DNA of 32,531 nt, taken from the NCBI GenBank assembly GCA_029556545.1, contig JAKQEQ010000125.1, positions 1-32,531 of the forward strand, written 5' to 3'. Numbering within the stretch: position 1 is the stretch's first letter; the number at the start of each line of letters is the position of its first letter. Positions 1 to 32,531 of this stretch are shown piece by piece. Position numbers and translations under genes: made by a program. The notes under the pieces were generated by a model that made no database searches, had not been told where the DNA came from, and worked only from the letters and a program-made list of their open reading frames with translations. This stretch comes from Candidatus Hydrogenedentota bacterium. Its GTDB lineage: Bacteria > Hydrogenedentota > Hydrogenedentia > Hydrogenedentales > JAGMZX01.

Positions 1-1182
1 GCGGGAAGCGAAGCGCTCGGGATCGACGGTCCATTCGGCGTTCGGGTCGAAGACGCAGACGTCCGCCGGGCCGCCTTCGCGCAGGACGCCCACGCCGAGG
101 TCGCAGATGCGGGACGGCTCGCAGGTCATTAGGGCGATGGCGCGTTCGATGCTGAGGTGGCCGGGCGCGACGAGGTCGGTGATGGTGAGTCCGAGGAGGG
201 TTTCGAGTCCGACGATGCCGAACGGGGCGAAGCCGAACTCGACGTTCTTCTCGGTGGCGGTGTGTGGTGCGTGGTCGGTGGCGATGCAGTCGATTGTGCC
301 GTCCTTAAGCCCCTCGATGATGGCGGCGACGTCTTCGGCTTCGCGGAGCGGCGGGTTCATCTTGGCGTTGGTGTCGAATTCGAGGACGGCGTCGTCGGTA
401 AGGGTCCAATAATGGGGGCAGGTCTCGCACGTGACGTTGATGCCCTTGGCCTTTGCGCGGCGGATGATGTTCACGCCTTCGGCGGTGGTGACGTGCTGAA
501 TGTGGAGATGGGCGCCGGTCAGTTCGGCGATGCGGATGTTGCGTTCGATGGCGATTTCCTCGACGGCCTTGGGGATGCCGGGGATGCCGAGTTTGGTGCT
601 GTTGAAGCCTTCGTTCATCGCGCCTTCGGCGCCGAGTGTGGGGTCCTCGCAGTGGGCGAGCACGGGGAGTCCGGCCATCTTCGCGTATTCGAGTACGCGG
701 CGCATGGTCCAACTGCTTGGGATATCGCGTCCGTCGTCGGTGACGGCGACGGCCCCCACGTCATGCAGTTCGGCCATCTCGGTGAGTTCCTCGCCTTTCA
801 TGCCTTTCGTGGCGCAGGCGGCGGGCCGGACCTTGATGCAGCCTTCCTCGCGGGCGCGGCGCTGGACGAACTCGACCATGCCGGCGTTGTCGATGGGCGG
901 CGCGGTGTTGGCCATGGTGACGACGGTGGTGACGCCGCCGCGGGCGGCGGCGCGGCAGCCGGTCTGGATGGTTTCCTTCGATTCGAAGCCGGGCTCGCGG
1001 AAATGGACGTGGATGTCGACGAGTCCGGGGCAGACGACGCAGCCGGAGGCGTCGATGACCTGGTCACCGGTGAGGCCCGTGCCGATTTTGGCGACCACGG
1101 ATCCGTCGATGAGGAGGTCGAGCGGCGCAGCGGTTCCAGCGGCGGGGTCAATGAGATGTCCATTCACGATAGCGAGGGTCAT
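1..1182 (-). CDS. pyrC: Dihydroorotase, C-terminus cut off by the window edge
   Basis: Catalyses reversible cyclisation of N-carbamoyl-aspartate to dihydroorotate, the third step of de novo pyrimidine synthesis, in the cytosol. The reading frame is open from the ATG at 1182 to position 1, giving 394 codons with no stop, so the protein is partial at its C-terminus. Visible motifs are the metal-binding DIHVHFREPG near residue 55, an AHCED segment, HIQHVTTAEG, and the late DHAPH motif characteristic of type I (PyrC/AllB-like) amidohydrolases. The start overlaps the pyrB stop as ATGA, so translation is probably coupled to pyrB. It is the last visible gene of a pyrR-pyrB-pyrC operon read leftwards. 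Active-site residues expected in the visible part are present, so I infer an active enzyme rather than a PyrC-prime pseudo-enzyme. Confidence 0.95.
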   Translation of the reverse strand, partial: MTLAIVNGHLIDPAAGTAAPLDLLIDGSVVAKIGTGLTGDQVIDASGCVVCPGLVDIHVHFREPGFESKETIQTGCRAAARGGVTTVVTMANTAPPIDNAGMVEFVQRRAREEGCIKVRPAACATKGMKGEELTEMAELHDVGAVAVTDDGRDIPSSWTMRRVLEYAKMAGLPVLAHCEDPTLGAEGAMNEGFNSTKLGIPGIPKAVEEIAIERNIRIAELTGAHLHIQHVTTAEGVNIIRRAKAKGINVTCETCPHYWTLTDDAVLEFDTNAKMNPPLREAEDVAAIIEGLKDGTIDCIATDHAPHTATEKNVEFGFAPFGIVGLETLLGLTITDLVAPGHLSIERAIALMTCEPSRICDLGVGVLREGGPADVCVFDPNAEWTVDPERFASR

Positions 1183-2204
1183 GAACCGAGTCCTTGTCTT
1201 GCCTGTGTCTGGGGGGCCGACGCGGCGGCCTGCGCGCGGGGGCTGTTGGCCAGCAGGTGCATGACGGCCATGCGAATGGCGACGCCGTTGCTGACCTGTT
1301 CGAGGATCACGCTGCGGGGCCCGTCGGCGACTTCGGTGGCGAGTTCGAGGTCGCGGTTGATGGGTCCGGGATGCATGATGAGGGCGTGGGCGGGGGCGTG
1401 GCGCAGCGAATCGTTGTCGATGCGGAAGAGTCGGATGTATTCGCGGATGCTGGGGAAGAGGCCGCGTTGCTGGCGTTCGAGTTGGATGCGGAGGGCGTAG
1501 ATGACGTCCGCGCCTTCGAGGGCCTCTTGGAGCCGGGAGGTGACGCGGACACCCATGCGATCGACGGCGACGGGCATGAGCGTGGTCGGGCCGCAAAGGG
1601 TCACTTCGGCCCCGAGCTTGTTGAGGCACCAGATGTTGCTTCTTGCGACGCGGCTGTTGGCGACGTCGCCGATGATGGAGACGCGCAGGCCGTCAAGGCC
1701 GGCGTCGGGATCATTGCGTAGTTTGCGCACGTGCCGGCGCATGGTAAATGCATCGAGCAGGGCTTGGGTGGGGTGTTCGTGGCGGCCATCGCCGGCGTTG
1801 ACGATGTGGGATCGGTGCCGGCGCGCGAGGATGTGGGGCGCGCCCGCGCAACTGTGTCGGATCACGATGATGTCGGTGTGCATCGCCTCGATGTTGGCGA
1901 GGGTGTCGTGGAGCGATTCGCCCTTGACCTCGCTCGAACTGCTGGAGGTAATCGCGAGCGTGTCGGCGCTGAGCCGTTTTGCCGCGAGTTCGAACGAGGT
2001 TCGGGTGCGCGTGCTGGGCTCGTGGAACCAATTGACGACGAGGCGTCCCTGCAATAGGGGCACCTTCTTGATCCCGCTCTCGCGCCGCGAAATCTCGACG
2101 AACTGGGGCGCGGTATCGAGGATTAGTTCGAGCTCGTCTCGTGCAAGGTCCTCGATGCCGATCAGGTCCTTGCGCGTCCAGACCGTCGATGGCGCCTCCC
2201 TCAT
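1179..2204 (-). CDS. pyrB: Aspartate carbamoyltransferase catalytic subunit
   Basis: Condenses carbamoyl phosphate with aspartate to give N-carbamoyl-aspartate, the committed step of pyrimidine synthesis. The 341-residue protein has the carbamoyl-phosphate loop STRTRTS near residue 65, the SSSS-EVKGES segment, the HPTQALLD motif, and HPGPINRD near the C-terminus, all diagnostic of the family. It is slightly longer than the usual 300-310 residues because of short N- and C-terminal tails. No pyrI regulatory-subunit gene is seen beside it. That fits a pyrR-controlled, PyrB-PyrC type of arrangement, although complex formation with the adjacent dihydroorotase is only inference. It starts 6 bp after the pyrR stop, with a purine-rich GGAGGAG stretch upstream, and its stop overlaps the pyrC start by 4 bp. 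Confidence 0.96.
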   Translation of the reverse strand: MREAPSTVWTRKDLIGIEDLARDELELILDTAPQFVEISRRESGIKKVPLLQGRLVVNWFHEPSTRTRTSFELAAKRLSADTLAITSSSSSEVKGESLHDTLANIEAMHTDIIVIRHSCAGAPHILARRHRSHIVNAGDGRHEHPTQALLDAFTMRRHVRKLRNDPDAGLDGLRVSIIGDVANSRVARSNIWCLNKLGAEVTLCGPTTLMPVAVDRMGVRVTSRLQEALEGADVIYALRIQLERQQRGLFPSIREYIRLFRIDNDSLRHAPAHALIMHPGPINRDLELATEVADGPRSVILEQVSNGVAIRMAVMHLLANSPRAQAAASAPQTQARQGLGS

Positions 2205-2210
2205 GGCGCG

Positions 2211-2801
2211 TTATTCTCCTCCCTCTGTGGTTGTTCGGGCGCGGCGTTCCTCGAGGACCGCGTCCTCTCCGTCGATCTCCTTCAGGCGGACCGTCACCCA
2301 GTCGTTTGGATGCGTGGCGACGGTCCATCCGAGGTAATCGGGCTGTATGGGCAGTTCGCGGCCGCCGCGGTCCACGAGACACGCGAGTTGGATGCGCCTC
2401 GGGCGGCCATAGTCCATGACTTCGTCGAGGGCGGCGCGGATGGTGCGTCCGGCGGCCAAGACGTCGTCGACGAGGACCACGGTTCGGTTGTCCACGCTGA
2501 AATCGAAGTGGGTGGTCCCGCCCAGTTTGGCCTCGCCGACGCCGGCGCGGAGGTCGTCTCGGTAGAGCGTGGTGGCGAGGGAACCGACTGGTGGCCGGAA
2601 ATGGGCCATTTCGGCGATGGTGTCCGCAAGCCGGTCCGCGAGGGGACGTCCGCGCGTGAGGATGCCAAGGAGCACGAGCGACTCGATGTCCTCGTTGGCG
2701 TCGATGATGGCGCGGGCCATGCGTTCGAGGGCCTCGCGCATGGCCTGGGCGTCCATGAGCACGGTCTTTTCGGAGGAGGTGTTGTCGTTCTGCGTCGCCA
2801 T
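2211..2801 (-). CDS. pyrR: Bifunctional pyr operon regulator / uracil phosphoribosyltransferase
   Basis: PyrR proteins bind pyr-operon leader RNA in response to UMP/UTP and cause premature termination. Many also convert uracil plus PRPP to UMP. The product, 196 residues from the ATG at 2801, has the PRPP-binding signature VVLVDDVLAAGRT in its second half and the LVLLGILTRG segment that forms the PyrR core. A GTG at 2810 in the same frame would add three residues (M-T-G). I prefer the ATG, although neither start has a strong ribosome-binding site. The gene is first in the operon, directly behind a perfect 12-bp hairpin with a U-run, which is the setting expected for attenuation. Regulation through that leader is inferred; the canonical PyrR-binding loop is not clearly present. 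Confidence 0.93.
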   Translation of the reverse strand: MATQNDNTSSEKTVLMDAQAMREALERMARAIIDANEDIESLVLLGILTRGRPLADRLADTIAEMAHFRPPVGSLATTLYRDDLRAGVGEAKLGGTTHFDFSVDNRTVVLVDDVLAAGRTIRAALDEVMDYGRPRRIQLACLVDRGGRELPIQPDYLGWTVATHPNDWVTVRLKEIDGEDAVLEERRARTTTEGGE

Positions 2802-2806
2802 TCCGG

Positions 2807-2857
2807 TCACACAAAAAAAGCCCTTCTCACCGTGATGAGAAGGGCTTGCTGTTTCAT
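2807..2857 (-). CDS. Possible 16-residue leader peptide of the pyr operon
   Basis: A short frame starts with ATG at 2857 and ends with TGA at 2807, encoding MKQQALLITVRRAFFV. It is preceded by a purine-rich GAAAAGG a few bases upstream that could act as a ribosome-binding site. The frame runs straight through both arms of the attenuator hairpin and its U-run, and it stops just before the pyrR start. Translation to the end would keep the hairpin from forming, as happens with the pyrBI leader peptide of E. coli. A 17-codon frame could occur by chance, and no homologue is known to me, so this is a candidate only. Confidence 0.35.
   Translation of the reverse strand: MKQQALLITVRRAFFV
2813..2847 (-). 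terminator. Attenuator-type intrinsic terminator ahead of pyrR
   Basis: Read on the minus strand, a perfect 12-bp stem (arms 2836-2847 and 2818-2829) with a 6-nt loop is followed by a run of seven T. This is a textbook intrinsic terminator. It lies between the pyr promoter and the pyrR start, so it must be conditional. An upstream AAGGGC at 2882-2887 (minus sense) can pair with the left arm GCCCTT and act as an antiterminator. The same stretch can instead close a small GGGC-GTG-GCCC hairpin. These alternative pairings are inferred by eye. Confidence 0.85.
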
Positions 2858-2915
2858 GGCCTTTTCAATCCTCGGGGCCACGCCCTTTCGGTCGAAACGT
2901 TTCAGTACGTTGCGG

Positions 2916-2944
2916 ATTCTATCAGGGCGGCGGGAGGGAATCAA
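2916..2944 (-). promoter_or_regulatory. Sigma-70-type promoter of the pyr operon
   Basis: On the minus strand, TTGATT (2939-2944) and TAGAAT (2916-2921) are separated by exactly 17 bp. The predicted transcription start near 2909 gives a leader of about 100 nt containing the attenuator. Confidence 0.65.
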
Positions 2945-3008
2945 GGCGACAATTGGGGGAGCGTTGGGTTGATCGGAGGTGGGGCAGGTTTGGAGGCGGG
3001 ATGAGGGC

Positions 3009-3044
3009 GATTACGATTACGATTACGATTACGATCACGAGTAC
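3009..3044. repeat. Six tandem GATTAC-like hexamers
   Basis: Four exact GATTAC units are followed by GATCAC and GAGTAC. They lie in the roughly 170-bp gap between the pyr promoter and the CbiX-like gene. Apart from this repeat and the pyr promoter and leader, I see nothing else in 2811-3115. Confidence 0.9.
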
Positions 3045-3115
3045 GAGGGGGAGGGGGCAGGAATCAGGGCGCGGGGTTCGGGTGTTGGTTCTGGAAGTTA
3101 CTGGAACTCGGGCAG

Positions 3116-4767: not shown

Positions 4768-4933
4768 ATGGACGGGATGGACGGTATGGACGGGGCGCGG
4801 CCAAGAAGGACCAAAAGGACCAAAGGGACCAAAGGGACCAAGAGGACCGAAGGGACCGAGAGGACCGAAGGGACCGAGAGGGCCGAAGGGACTAAGAGGG
4901 CCGAAGGGACTAAGAGGACCGATGGGACCAAGG
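4768..4933. repeat. 9-bp tandem repeat blocks (ATGGACGGN and GGACCAAAG families)
   Basis: ATGGACGG-type units occur at 4768, 4777 and 4786 with a 9-bp period. Fourteen GGACCAAAG-type units then run from 4808 to 4933, also with a 9-bp period. In the later half GGACCGAAG alternates with GGACTAAGA, giving an 18-bp higher-order unit. Reading frames through it give only low-complexity peptides on both strands, and I do not call a gene. The block fills most of the gap 4757-5153. The rest of that gap shows only a weak TATGCT-like -10 at 5092 before trpS. Confidence 0.9.
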
Positions 4934-30900: not shown

Positions 30901-32531
30901 GTGTTCCCCACGCACGTGGGGATGAACCGAATGATTGACACCATCGCCTTCGAAGTCCCAAGTGTTCCCCACGCACGTGGGGATGAACCGAATAGGACGC
31001 GCCTTGCGGACGAGGCATGGGAGTGTTCCCCACGCACGTGGGGATGAACCGTACCTTTTCCCTATACTACCTGTACTACACGCGTGTTCCCCACGCACGT
31101 GGGGATGAACCGCTCCGCGACCGTCGCCTGGCGTATGAACTCGGGTGTTCCCCACGCACGTGGGGATGAACCGGCGGACGCCAAGCCTCTTCTCTCGCGT
31201 TGCACGTGTTCCCCACGCACGTGGGGATGAACCGCGGGGGACAAAGCCACCGAGGGCGCGCGCAAAGTGTTCCCCACGCACGTGGGGATGAACCGAATCG
31301 CGGTTCTCGTGGACGCCACAAAATCCAGTGTTCCCCACGCACGTGGGGATGAACCGGACATGGACCCGCGAGTAGCAAAGTTAGCCGCGTGTTCCCCACG
31401 CACGTGGGGATGAACCGGAGAGCAATGACGTGGCAAGAGCGCATAGAACGTGTTCCCCACGCACGTGGGGATGAACCTTCAGACGCGCCCGCATCCGCCT
31501 CGGGCTGAACGTGTTCCCCACGCACGTGGGGATGAACCGCGAGTTGCAGGAACGTTCCATTACATTCGCTCGTGTTCCCCACGCACGTGGGGATGAACCG
31601 ACGCCGGACACAACCAAACTGATACGGCCTGTGTGTTCCCCACGCACGTGGGGATGAACCGTAGCACGCCCGACTTCCCTACGCACCTATAACGTGTTCC
31701 CCACGCACGTGGGGATGAACCGGGCGAAGGACACCGGCGAGACATGGGTCGCGCGTGTTCCCCACGCACGTGGGGATGAACCGACGAGTGCGGGGTCGCC
31801 CTCCAGGGCCGGGGGGTGTTCCCCACGCACGTGGGGATGAACCGGAAGAGGAACAAGAAGAAGAGCAGCAAGAAGAGTGTTCCCCACGCACGTGGGGATG
31901 AACCGAGCTAGAGATAGGCGTTGTGGATGATGAAATTGTGTTCCCCACGCACGTGGGGATGAACCGGTCTGAGCCGGATGCAGCAGTACGGGACGGTGGT
32001 GTTCCCCACGCACGTGGGGATGAACCGAGAAACGCGGGCTCGCGCTCGCGGGCAGCACCGTGTTCCCCACGCACGTGGGGATGAACCGCATTGGGCCGGT
32101 CGTCTGGGCGGGTTCCGGGCGTGTTCCCCACGCACGTGGGGATGAACCGCCATGACCTACCACATCATCGTAATCGCCGCGGTGTTCCCCACGCACGTGG
32201 GGATGAACCGAGGAGACCCAGGACCGCGCCAAGGGACCCGCCGTGTTCCCCACGCACGTGGGGATGAACCGGCGGGAAAAGGCCCGGAAACACGGCGGGA
32301 TCCGTGTTCCCCACGCACGTGGGGATGAACCGTCCGAGTCCGTAAGGCTAAGTGCAGCAAAGACGTGTTCCCCACGCACGTGGGGATGAACCGAGGGATG
32401 AGCGCGGTGAGGGGGACGGAGCGGAGTGTTCCCCACGCACGTGGGGATGAACCGTACTTCCGCACCTGCGCCGCGCCGTACATCAGGTGTTCCCCACGCA
32501 CGTGGGGATGAACCGACTTACGAATCGTTGT
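30901..32531 (+). CRISPR. Type I-E CRISPR array, 27 repeats, continuing past the window
   Basis: A 29-bp repeat begins GTGTTCCCC and ends GGGGATGAACCG. It recurs with a strict 61-bp period (29 + 32-bp spacers) from 30901 to 32487, giving 27 repeats, 26 full spacers and a partial one. The inner part, CCCCAC-GCAC-GTGGGG, forms the hairpin cut by Cas6e. The 3' part ATGAACCG would be the crRNA 5' handle when transcribed in the plus direction, the same sense as the cas genes. Repeats look identical except the tenth (31450-31478), which ends in T instead of G. No spacer is duplicated, by eye. The sixteenth spacer is a purine-only-like run of GAAGAG/CAAGAA units. Confidence 0.98.

Follow-up and report, generated by a model that had tools for sequence, protein, structure and literature searches.

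In Candidatus Hydrogenedentota, a short leader open reading frame (ORF) crosses a predicted intrinsic terminator and has its stop on the start of pyrR, an arrangement that is real and conserved and, on comparative sequence grounds, probably a new variant of translation-coupled pyrimidine attenuation. We think it probable that transcription of the pyr operon is attenuated here through coupling to translation, with pyrimidine shortage, acting via a slowed RNA polymerase, as the likeliest signal. No paper on this element turned up among the listed titles and abstract beginnings of the open-licence PMC literature searched.

The window, by which we mean the whole 32,531-nt stretch of DNA analysed, carries the element on its minus strand, followed downstream by pyrR, pyrB and pyrC in that order (Table 1). 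An earlier note on this DNA had placed a promoter with 17-bp spacing and a perfect terminator ahead of pyrR, and both were borne out. The promoter is the sole sigma-70-like match between positions 2000 and 4000, where shuffles gave a mean of 0.3; the promoter script always returns a best match, so the promoter by itself is no test. A transcript placed from the −10 would start near 2909. The predicted terminator has 13 pairs and a 4-nt loop, and two residues of its T7 run are paired within the stem while five lie beyond it. Downstream, pyrB and the likely start of pyrC share 4 nt at the pyrB stop, and pyrB follows pyrR in 28/28 loci with sufficient downstream DNA. The start of pyrR would be either the GTG at 2810, which overlaps the leader ORF as GTGA, or the ATG at 2789, and coupling to the leader ORF stop points to the former. 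Among named relatives, those closest to the window PyrR are from Candidatus Hydrogenedentota MAGs.

Table 1. Positions of the attenuator features and pyr genes in the window.
Feature	Position	Strand	Remark
Promoter TTGATT-17-TAGAAT, TG-extended −10	2916..2944	minus	sigma-70-like; best promoter-like matches in relatives at similar positions
Short leader RNA, ~60 nt	2848..2909	minus	no structure or antiterminator beyond shuffles
Hairpin CGUGGCC/GGCCAUG, 7 bp, hiding the leader AUG	2855..2882	minus	possible, genus-level; not significant
Leader ORF, 16 codons, MKQQALLITVRRAFFV	2807..2857	minus	coupling to pyrR conserved
Intrinsic terminator, 13-bp stem (2847-2818) and remaining T-tract	2813..2847	minus	predicted from sequence
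CCUUCUC core, terminator 5′ arm	2837..2843	minus	near-invariant across the phylum
pyrR, PyrR/uracil phosphoribosyltransferase family	2211..2810	minus	NF003549, E 6e-59
pyrB, aspartate carbamoyltransferase	1179..2204	minus	
pyrC, dihydroorotase	1..1182	minus	extends past the window end

The terminator is widespread across the phylum. Among 68 genomes searched, 61 yielded a pyrR match (including one truncated gene, L107) and 7 yielded none, and the upstream regions of all 61 pyrR loci were examined; loci L004-L017 were taken as duplicates of G loci and counted once. A terminator lies between a promoter-like site and pyrR in 45 of the 61, spread over 31 genera, a count that, like all those given for the phylum, comes from genomes that are not independent. 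The script called 42 of these terminators and three (L053, L079 and L104) were found by hand; on slightly longer stretches from the same 61 loci, the terminator finder called 43, against 0.8 expected in shuffles. We rejected the reading of the hairpin as the terminator of an upstream gene because a promoter-like site precedes it. Sixteen pyrR genes (L062, L063, L067, L068, L074, L082-L084, L087, L088, L094, L095, L102, L103, L105 and L106) have no terminator in front of them, among them all examined loci of genera g5, g7, g9 and g18, and the regulation of these sixteen must differ.

The leader ORF was also as first described. In the window, its ATG occupies 2857-2855 and its TGA 2809-2807, the latter overlapping the pyrR GTG (2810-2808) in the shared letters GTGA, and L003, from the same genus, has the same frame and GTGA with the leader peptide MKQRALLIPVRRAFFV. 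Across the 45 loci, a frame with any start that crosses the hairpin from end to end and overlaps pyrR by 4 nt at its stop was found in 23, compared to 6.1-9.5 in controls in which the frame between hairpin and pyrR was shifted by one or two bases. Restricting the start to ATG gave 19/45 versus 0.8-4.9, and weighting by genus gave 11.4/31 versus 0.7-4.4. When one preferred start was taken per locus, 20 leader ORFs, from 13 genera in 6 families, had the 4-nt overlap at their stop, 15 ended from 25 nt before to 40 nt after the pyrR start, 6 stopped within the hairpin and 1 ended 76 nt upstream of the nearest pyrR start, with 3 loci lacking an acceptable start. A conserved leader peptide was rejected, as the peptides differ and CCUUCUC can fall in any of the three reading frames. 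The earlier note had suggested a combination of PyrR-type attenuation with the translation-coupled attenuation of E. coli pyrBI; these comparisons give strong support to a pyrBI-like half, in which translation of the leader ORF would carry on across the terminator and be coupled to the gene that follows, but the PyrR half was not supported (see below).

As in E. coli pyrBI/pyrL, the leader ORF of a pyrimidine operon passes through an intrinsic terminator and ends beside the next start, and the E. coli terminator, which reads AGCCCCUCAAUCGAGGGGCU followed by a U-tract, likewise has a pyrimidine-rich 5′ arm. The two differ in that pyrL has 44 codons and ends 3 nt before pyrB, whereas the window leader has 16 and its stop overlaps the start of pyrR; the 7-nt core described below is conserved in the phylum. 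They also differ in that E. coli carries a U-rich tract before the hairpin, whereas the phylum has none, its pyrimidine run of 7-10 nt lying within the 5′ arm. Between the leader ATG and the stem, a T4 run was seen in 1/38 loci and not in the window.

The position of the leader start relative to the hairpin is conserved. An ATG lies 13-16 nt before the terminator core in 23/45 loci, compared to 5.0 in shuffles, and the 45 loci had no excess in two more distant ranges (6 versus 8.0 at 20-26 nt; 12 versus 18.7 at 27-45 nt). In the window the leader AUG is 10 nt before the stem, and the leader Shine-Dalgarno sequence is weak or poorly spaced (−5.9 kcal/mol in the window, −3.5 in L003).

The most conserved part of the hairpin is the CCUUCUC core of its 5′ arm, which is exact in 36/45 loci. 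Three loci without a recognisable core (L053, L079 and L085) were left out of the core-pair and fold analyses; in the remaining 42, the four C-G pairs of the core never changed. At its remaining three positions the pair is U-A or U-G, in rare cases C-G; the exceptions are mismatches at one position in L050, L080 and L081 and a reversed G-C pair in L081. The outer stem pairs vary with compensation. Changes from A to G that leave a wobble pair are tolerated in the 3′ arm, and in 40/45 loci the pyrimidine run at the 5′ arm is 7-10 nt at its longest. Other terminators in the fetched loci (n = 8) were too few to compare, and a genome-wide count was used instead: the hairpin pattern with its T-tract matched 33 sites in 32 of the 68 genomes, 32 of them pyrR leaders, while the same search run backwards gave one match. 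A stricter pattern matched in 14 genomes, each time at the pyrR leader, with 0 control matches. Judging from the conserved core and the near confinement of the pattern to pyrR leaders, the 5′ arm is under constraint beyond pairing; what is kept may be either the pyrimidine strand or a binding site. The sole off-target site, in genome G002, lies within a long open frame on the opposite strand and is for that reason probably a chance match.

If the constraint were on a binding site, CCUUCUC would be recognised by an RNA-binding protein or small RNA, and the leader ORF would merely couple translation, opening the hairpin. An arm conserved beyond the needs of pairing, opposite a 3′ arm that tolerates wobble, is what such a site would produce, but the 13-16 nt AUG spacing is left unexplained, and we consider this reading quite unlikely; we know of no candidate factor. 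A DNA operator was rejected, as the two arms are unequally conserved.

The attenuator that we favour would work as follows. By default, RNA polymerase would halt at the terminator before pyrR. A ribosome arriving in time on the leader ORF would cover the 5′ arm and block the hairpin, letting transcription go on, and on reaching the ATGA or GTGA overlap it would re-initiate on pyrR. Because the 5′ arm core is pyrimidine-only, a shortage of pyrimidines, the likeliest signal, would be expected to slow polymerase there. At that point polymerase is some 15 nt beyond the leader AUG, which would just be emerging from it together with the Shine-Dalgarno site, so that a ribosome could load before the hairpin is completed. 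The leader AUG lies closer to the hairpin than in pyrBI, so that without a slowing of polymerase termination should be the normal outcome. According to one study, terminators lying up to 100 bp into a coding region, one of them 30 bp past the start codon, work because translation is as yet uncoupled, and pausing sites give the coupling in pyrBI (PMC4824070); another holds that in the pyrBI leader tight coupling is needed to prevent the terminator (PMC5021804). In the window genus, the GAGAAGG of the terminator 3′ arm stands at ribosome-site distance from the pyrR GTG at 2810 (score −5.8) and may act as its Shine-Dalgarno sequence, in which case opening of the hairpin may serve translation too. 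Counting against this mechanism are the 16 loci that lack the terminator, the leader ORFs that stop within the hairpin or well short of pyrR or have no acceptable start, the weak or poorly spaced Shine-Dalgarno sequence of the window leader, the missing U-rich tract, and an arm whose conservation would suit a binding site equally well.

The alternative pairings upstream of the terminator that the earlier note had pointed out can be drawn but are no stabler than chance. The 97-nt leader including the terminator folds at −34.5 kcal/mol (z −3.0); without the terminator, the rest of the window leader gives z −0.31. The upstream hairpin listed in Table 1 has the same letters in L003, where the predicted fold differs. 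Alternative structures of the B. subtilis type, an antiterminator with an anti-antiterminator, would account for a bulged pairing of GAAAGGGC with GCCCUUCUC that the eye can trace in both the window and L003, and the best duplex between leader and arm reaches −11.6 kcal/mol in both. Over 42 loci, though, the mean z against shuffles was +0.20 for pairing with the terminator 5′ arm (window −1.03) and 0.00 for the leader fold upstream of the terminator (window 0.02), which makes this explanation very improbable. Individual loci reach lower values, namely L066 (−1.96) and L099 (−1.86) for the leader fold and L070 (−2.14) and L066 (−1.66) for the arm duplex. An antiterminator and an upstream aptamer were rejected on the shuffles. 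No Rfam element was found in the window at cut-offs, and a known riboswitch or other Rfam element was rejected, with a weak match to L10_leader at 24.8 bits (cut-off 44; E 0.058) in an alignment that includes the terminator.

A pyrimidine-rich arm could also serve CTP-controlled attenuation. In B. subtilis pyrG, G residues added at the 5′ end of the RNA pair with the pyrimidine-rich terminator arm, and such an arm is common to pyrG and to the phylum, which differs in having no conserved initial G run. A G3, A4 or T4 run was present in the start region of 5/45 loci, and one of these was a G run. Slippage at the start site was rejected because the start region has no conserved run, and we regard control of the pyrG type as extremely improbable here.

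As in B. subtilis PyrR attenuation (RF00515), the attenuator precedes pyrR in a pyr operon; unlike that system, the phylum has antiterminator pairing at chance level and no PyrR loop that we could find, in keeping with the note's remark that none was clear in the window. The Rfam model RF00515 exceeded its cut-off in 0/68 phylum genomes and 2/14 control genomes, and weaker matches occurred in three genomes, none on a pyrR contig. At its cut-off, RF00515 misses loops in front of outgroup pyrR genes that are obvious on inspection, its single match in outgroup loci L018-L048 being a site in L021 downstream of pyrR. Given this insensitivity, we built our own loop model, trained on 19 outgroup loops over 35 positions, whose result counts for more. 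It recovered about 20 upstream loops among L018-L048. It also matched L042 and L021, both from outside the training set, and a second site in L033, and it was positive in 6/6 outgroup genomes, five of which had supplied training loops. In the Hydrogenedentota it found a loop in 0/61 loci at E up to 5, and a scan of the 68 genomes with E limited to 0.1 also gave none, the latter under stricter filters by which weak matches can be lost. Its best score on the window was 7.4 bits, falling on the terminator itself. A bare TCCNGNGAG occurs upstream of pyrR in 2/61 loci (L075 and L081), without a stem.

The protein has changed as well. The window PyrR scores 198.5 bits against NF003549 (cut-off 138), and its PRPP motif is VVLVDDVLAAGRT; the motif is kept, with variants, throughout the phylum. 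Savacool and Switzer, in 2002, reportedly identified H22, K40, H140, R146 and K152 as RNA contacts of PyrR. In the 61 Hydrogenedentota PyrRs, the equivalents of B. subtilis H22, H140 and K152 are kept in 3, 1 and 3 cases, respectively, that of K40 is leucine in 60/61 and that of R146 is glutamine in 55/61; R141 is kept in 60/61, the exception being the truncated gene. Outgroup PyrRs with an upstream loop, by contrast, retain H22, H140 and K152 in 21/21 and R or K at position 146 in 20/21, the 21 including L018, whose loop was accepted on inspection by eye together with a weak score from the loop model (18.3 bits, E 0.24). Among outgroup PyrRs without an upstream loop, 6/10 miss at least one of these residues. 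A review describes RNA binding by PyrR as involving a basic concave surface (PMC7430163). From the sequences, control through PyrR-RNA binding appears unlikely in this phylum, where PyrR is probably an enzyme only or acts in another way. The earlier note had named two findings that would speak against it, an RNA structure conserved without the leader frame and a clear PyrR loop able to explain regulation alone; the comparison instead gave conserved leader coupling with unconserved upstream structure, and no PyrR loop.

The outgroups, mostly Ignavibacteria and kin with Bacteroidota and others, suggest where the arrangement may have come from. In many of them the 3′ strand of the PyrR loop (AAGGA or alike) resembles a ribosome site that would serve a leader ORF. 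Five of the 21 loop-bearing loci (L023, L032, L035, L036 and L042) go further, in that the PyrR loop is followed by a leader ORF that starts in or just after the 3′ end of the loop and overlaps pyrR by 4 nt. The terminator finder caught 7/21 loop-bearing outgroups, L032 and L035 being without a called terminator, so outgroup hairpin counts are too low. In the pyrR-pyrB-bbc-pyrC operon of Thermus ZO5, Van de Casteele is said to have proposed in 1997 that a ribosome on the leader ORF prevents the terminator, that there is no antiterminator and that PyrR acts on the leader. The layout of the five outgroup loci, from other phyla, fits that proposal, and the window shares with it the pyrR-pyrB-pyrC order and a leader ORF running into a terminator before pyrR-pyrB; it differs in that PyrR would act on the Thermus leader, whereas in the phylum no PyrR loop was found and the PyrR face has changed.

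PyrR might then still regulate in the Thermus manner: by way of a diverged RNA site, UMP-bound PyrR would cover the ribosome site of the leader and halt its translation, so that the terminator forms. The resemblance of loop strand and ribosome site in some outgroups, with the five overlapping cases, lends this some substance, as do the retention of R141 and, for the window genus, a possible hairpin that would enclose the AUG. Against these stand the lack of any loop in 61 loci or 68 genomes with working controls, the residues H22, H140 and K152 that loop-bearing outgroups always keep and this phylum has nearly always lost, and upstream structure that is on average at chance. We therefore hold Thermus-like regulation to be unlikely, and continue to prefer attenuation by translation coupling and a slowed polymerase.

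The Hydrogenedentota look like the loop-bearing outgroup system after loss of the PyrR loop, a direction of change that we infer. More tentatively, and with doubts of our own, we suggest that the terminator 5′ arm is itself the pyrimidine sensor: at low UTP or CTP, CCUUCUC would slow polymerase at the very moment when the AUG, 13-16 nt upstream, emerges from the exit channel, and this protein-free race would have replaced the PyrR-RNA switch of the outgroups, leaving PyrR as an enzyme alone. The comparison suggests that the phylum kept the attenuator and leader ORF while the sensor was exchanged, and it warns that the gene name pyrR need not imply PyrR-RNA regulation. The element also provides a simple model, open to testing, in which readthrough hinges on a start codon that lies 10-15 nt ahead of a terminator.

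The window contains three further repeats. A six-base tandem repeat, CGATTA, is present in 6.5 copies at 3008-3046, between a cbiX-like gene and the promoter. About seven copies of an 18-bp tandem repeat fall within overlapping open frames at 4801-4932. At 30901-32332, repeats of about 29 bp (GTGTTCCCCACGCACGTGGGGATGAACCG) recur at a step of about 61 bp and resemble a CRISPR array.
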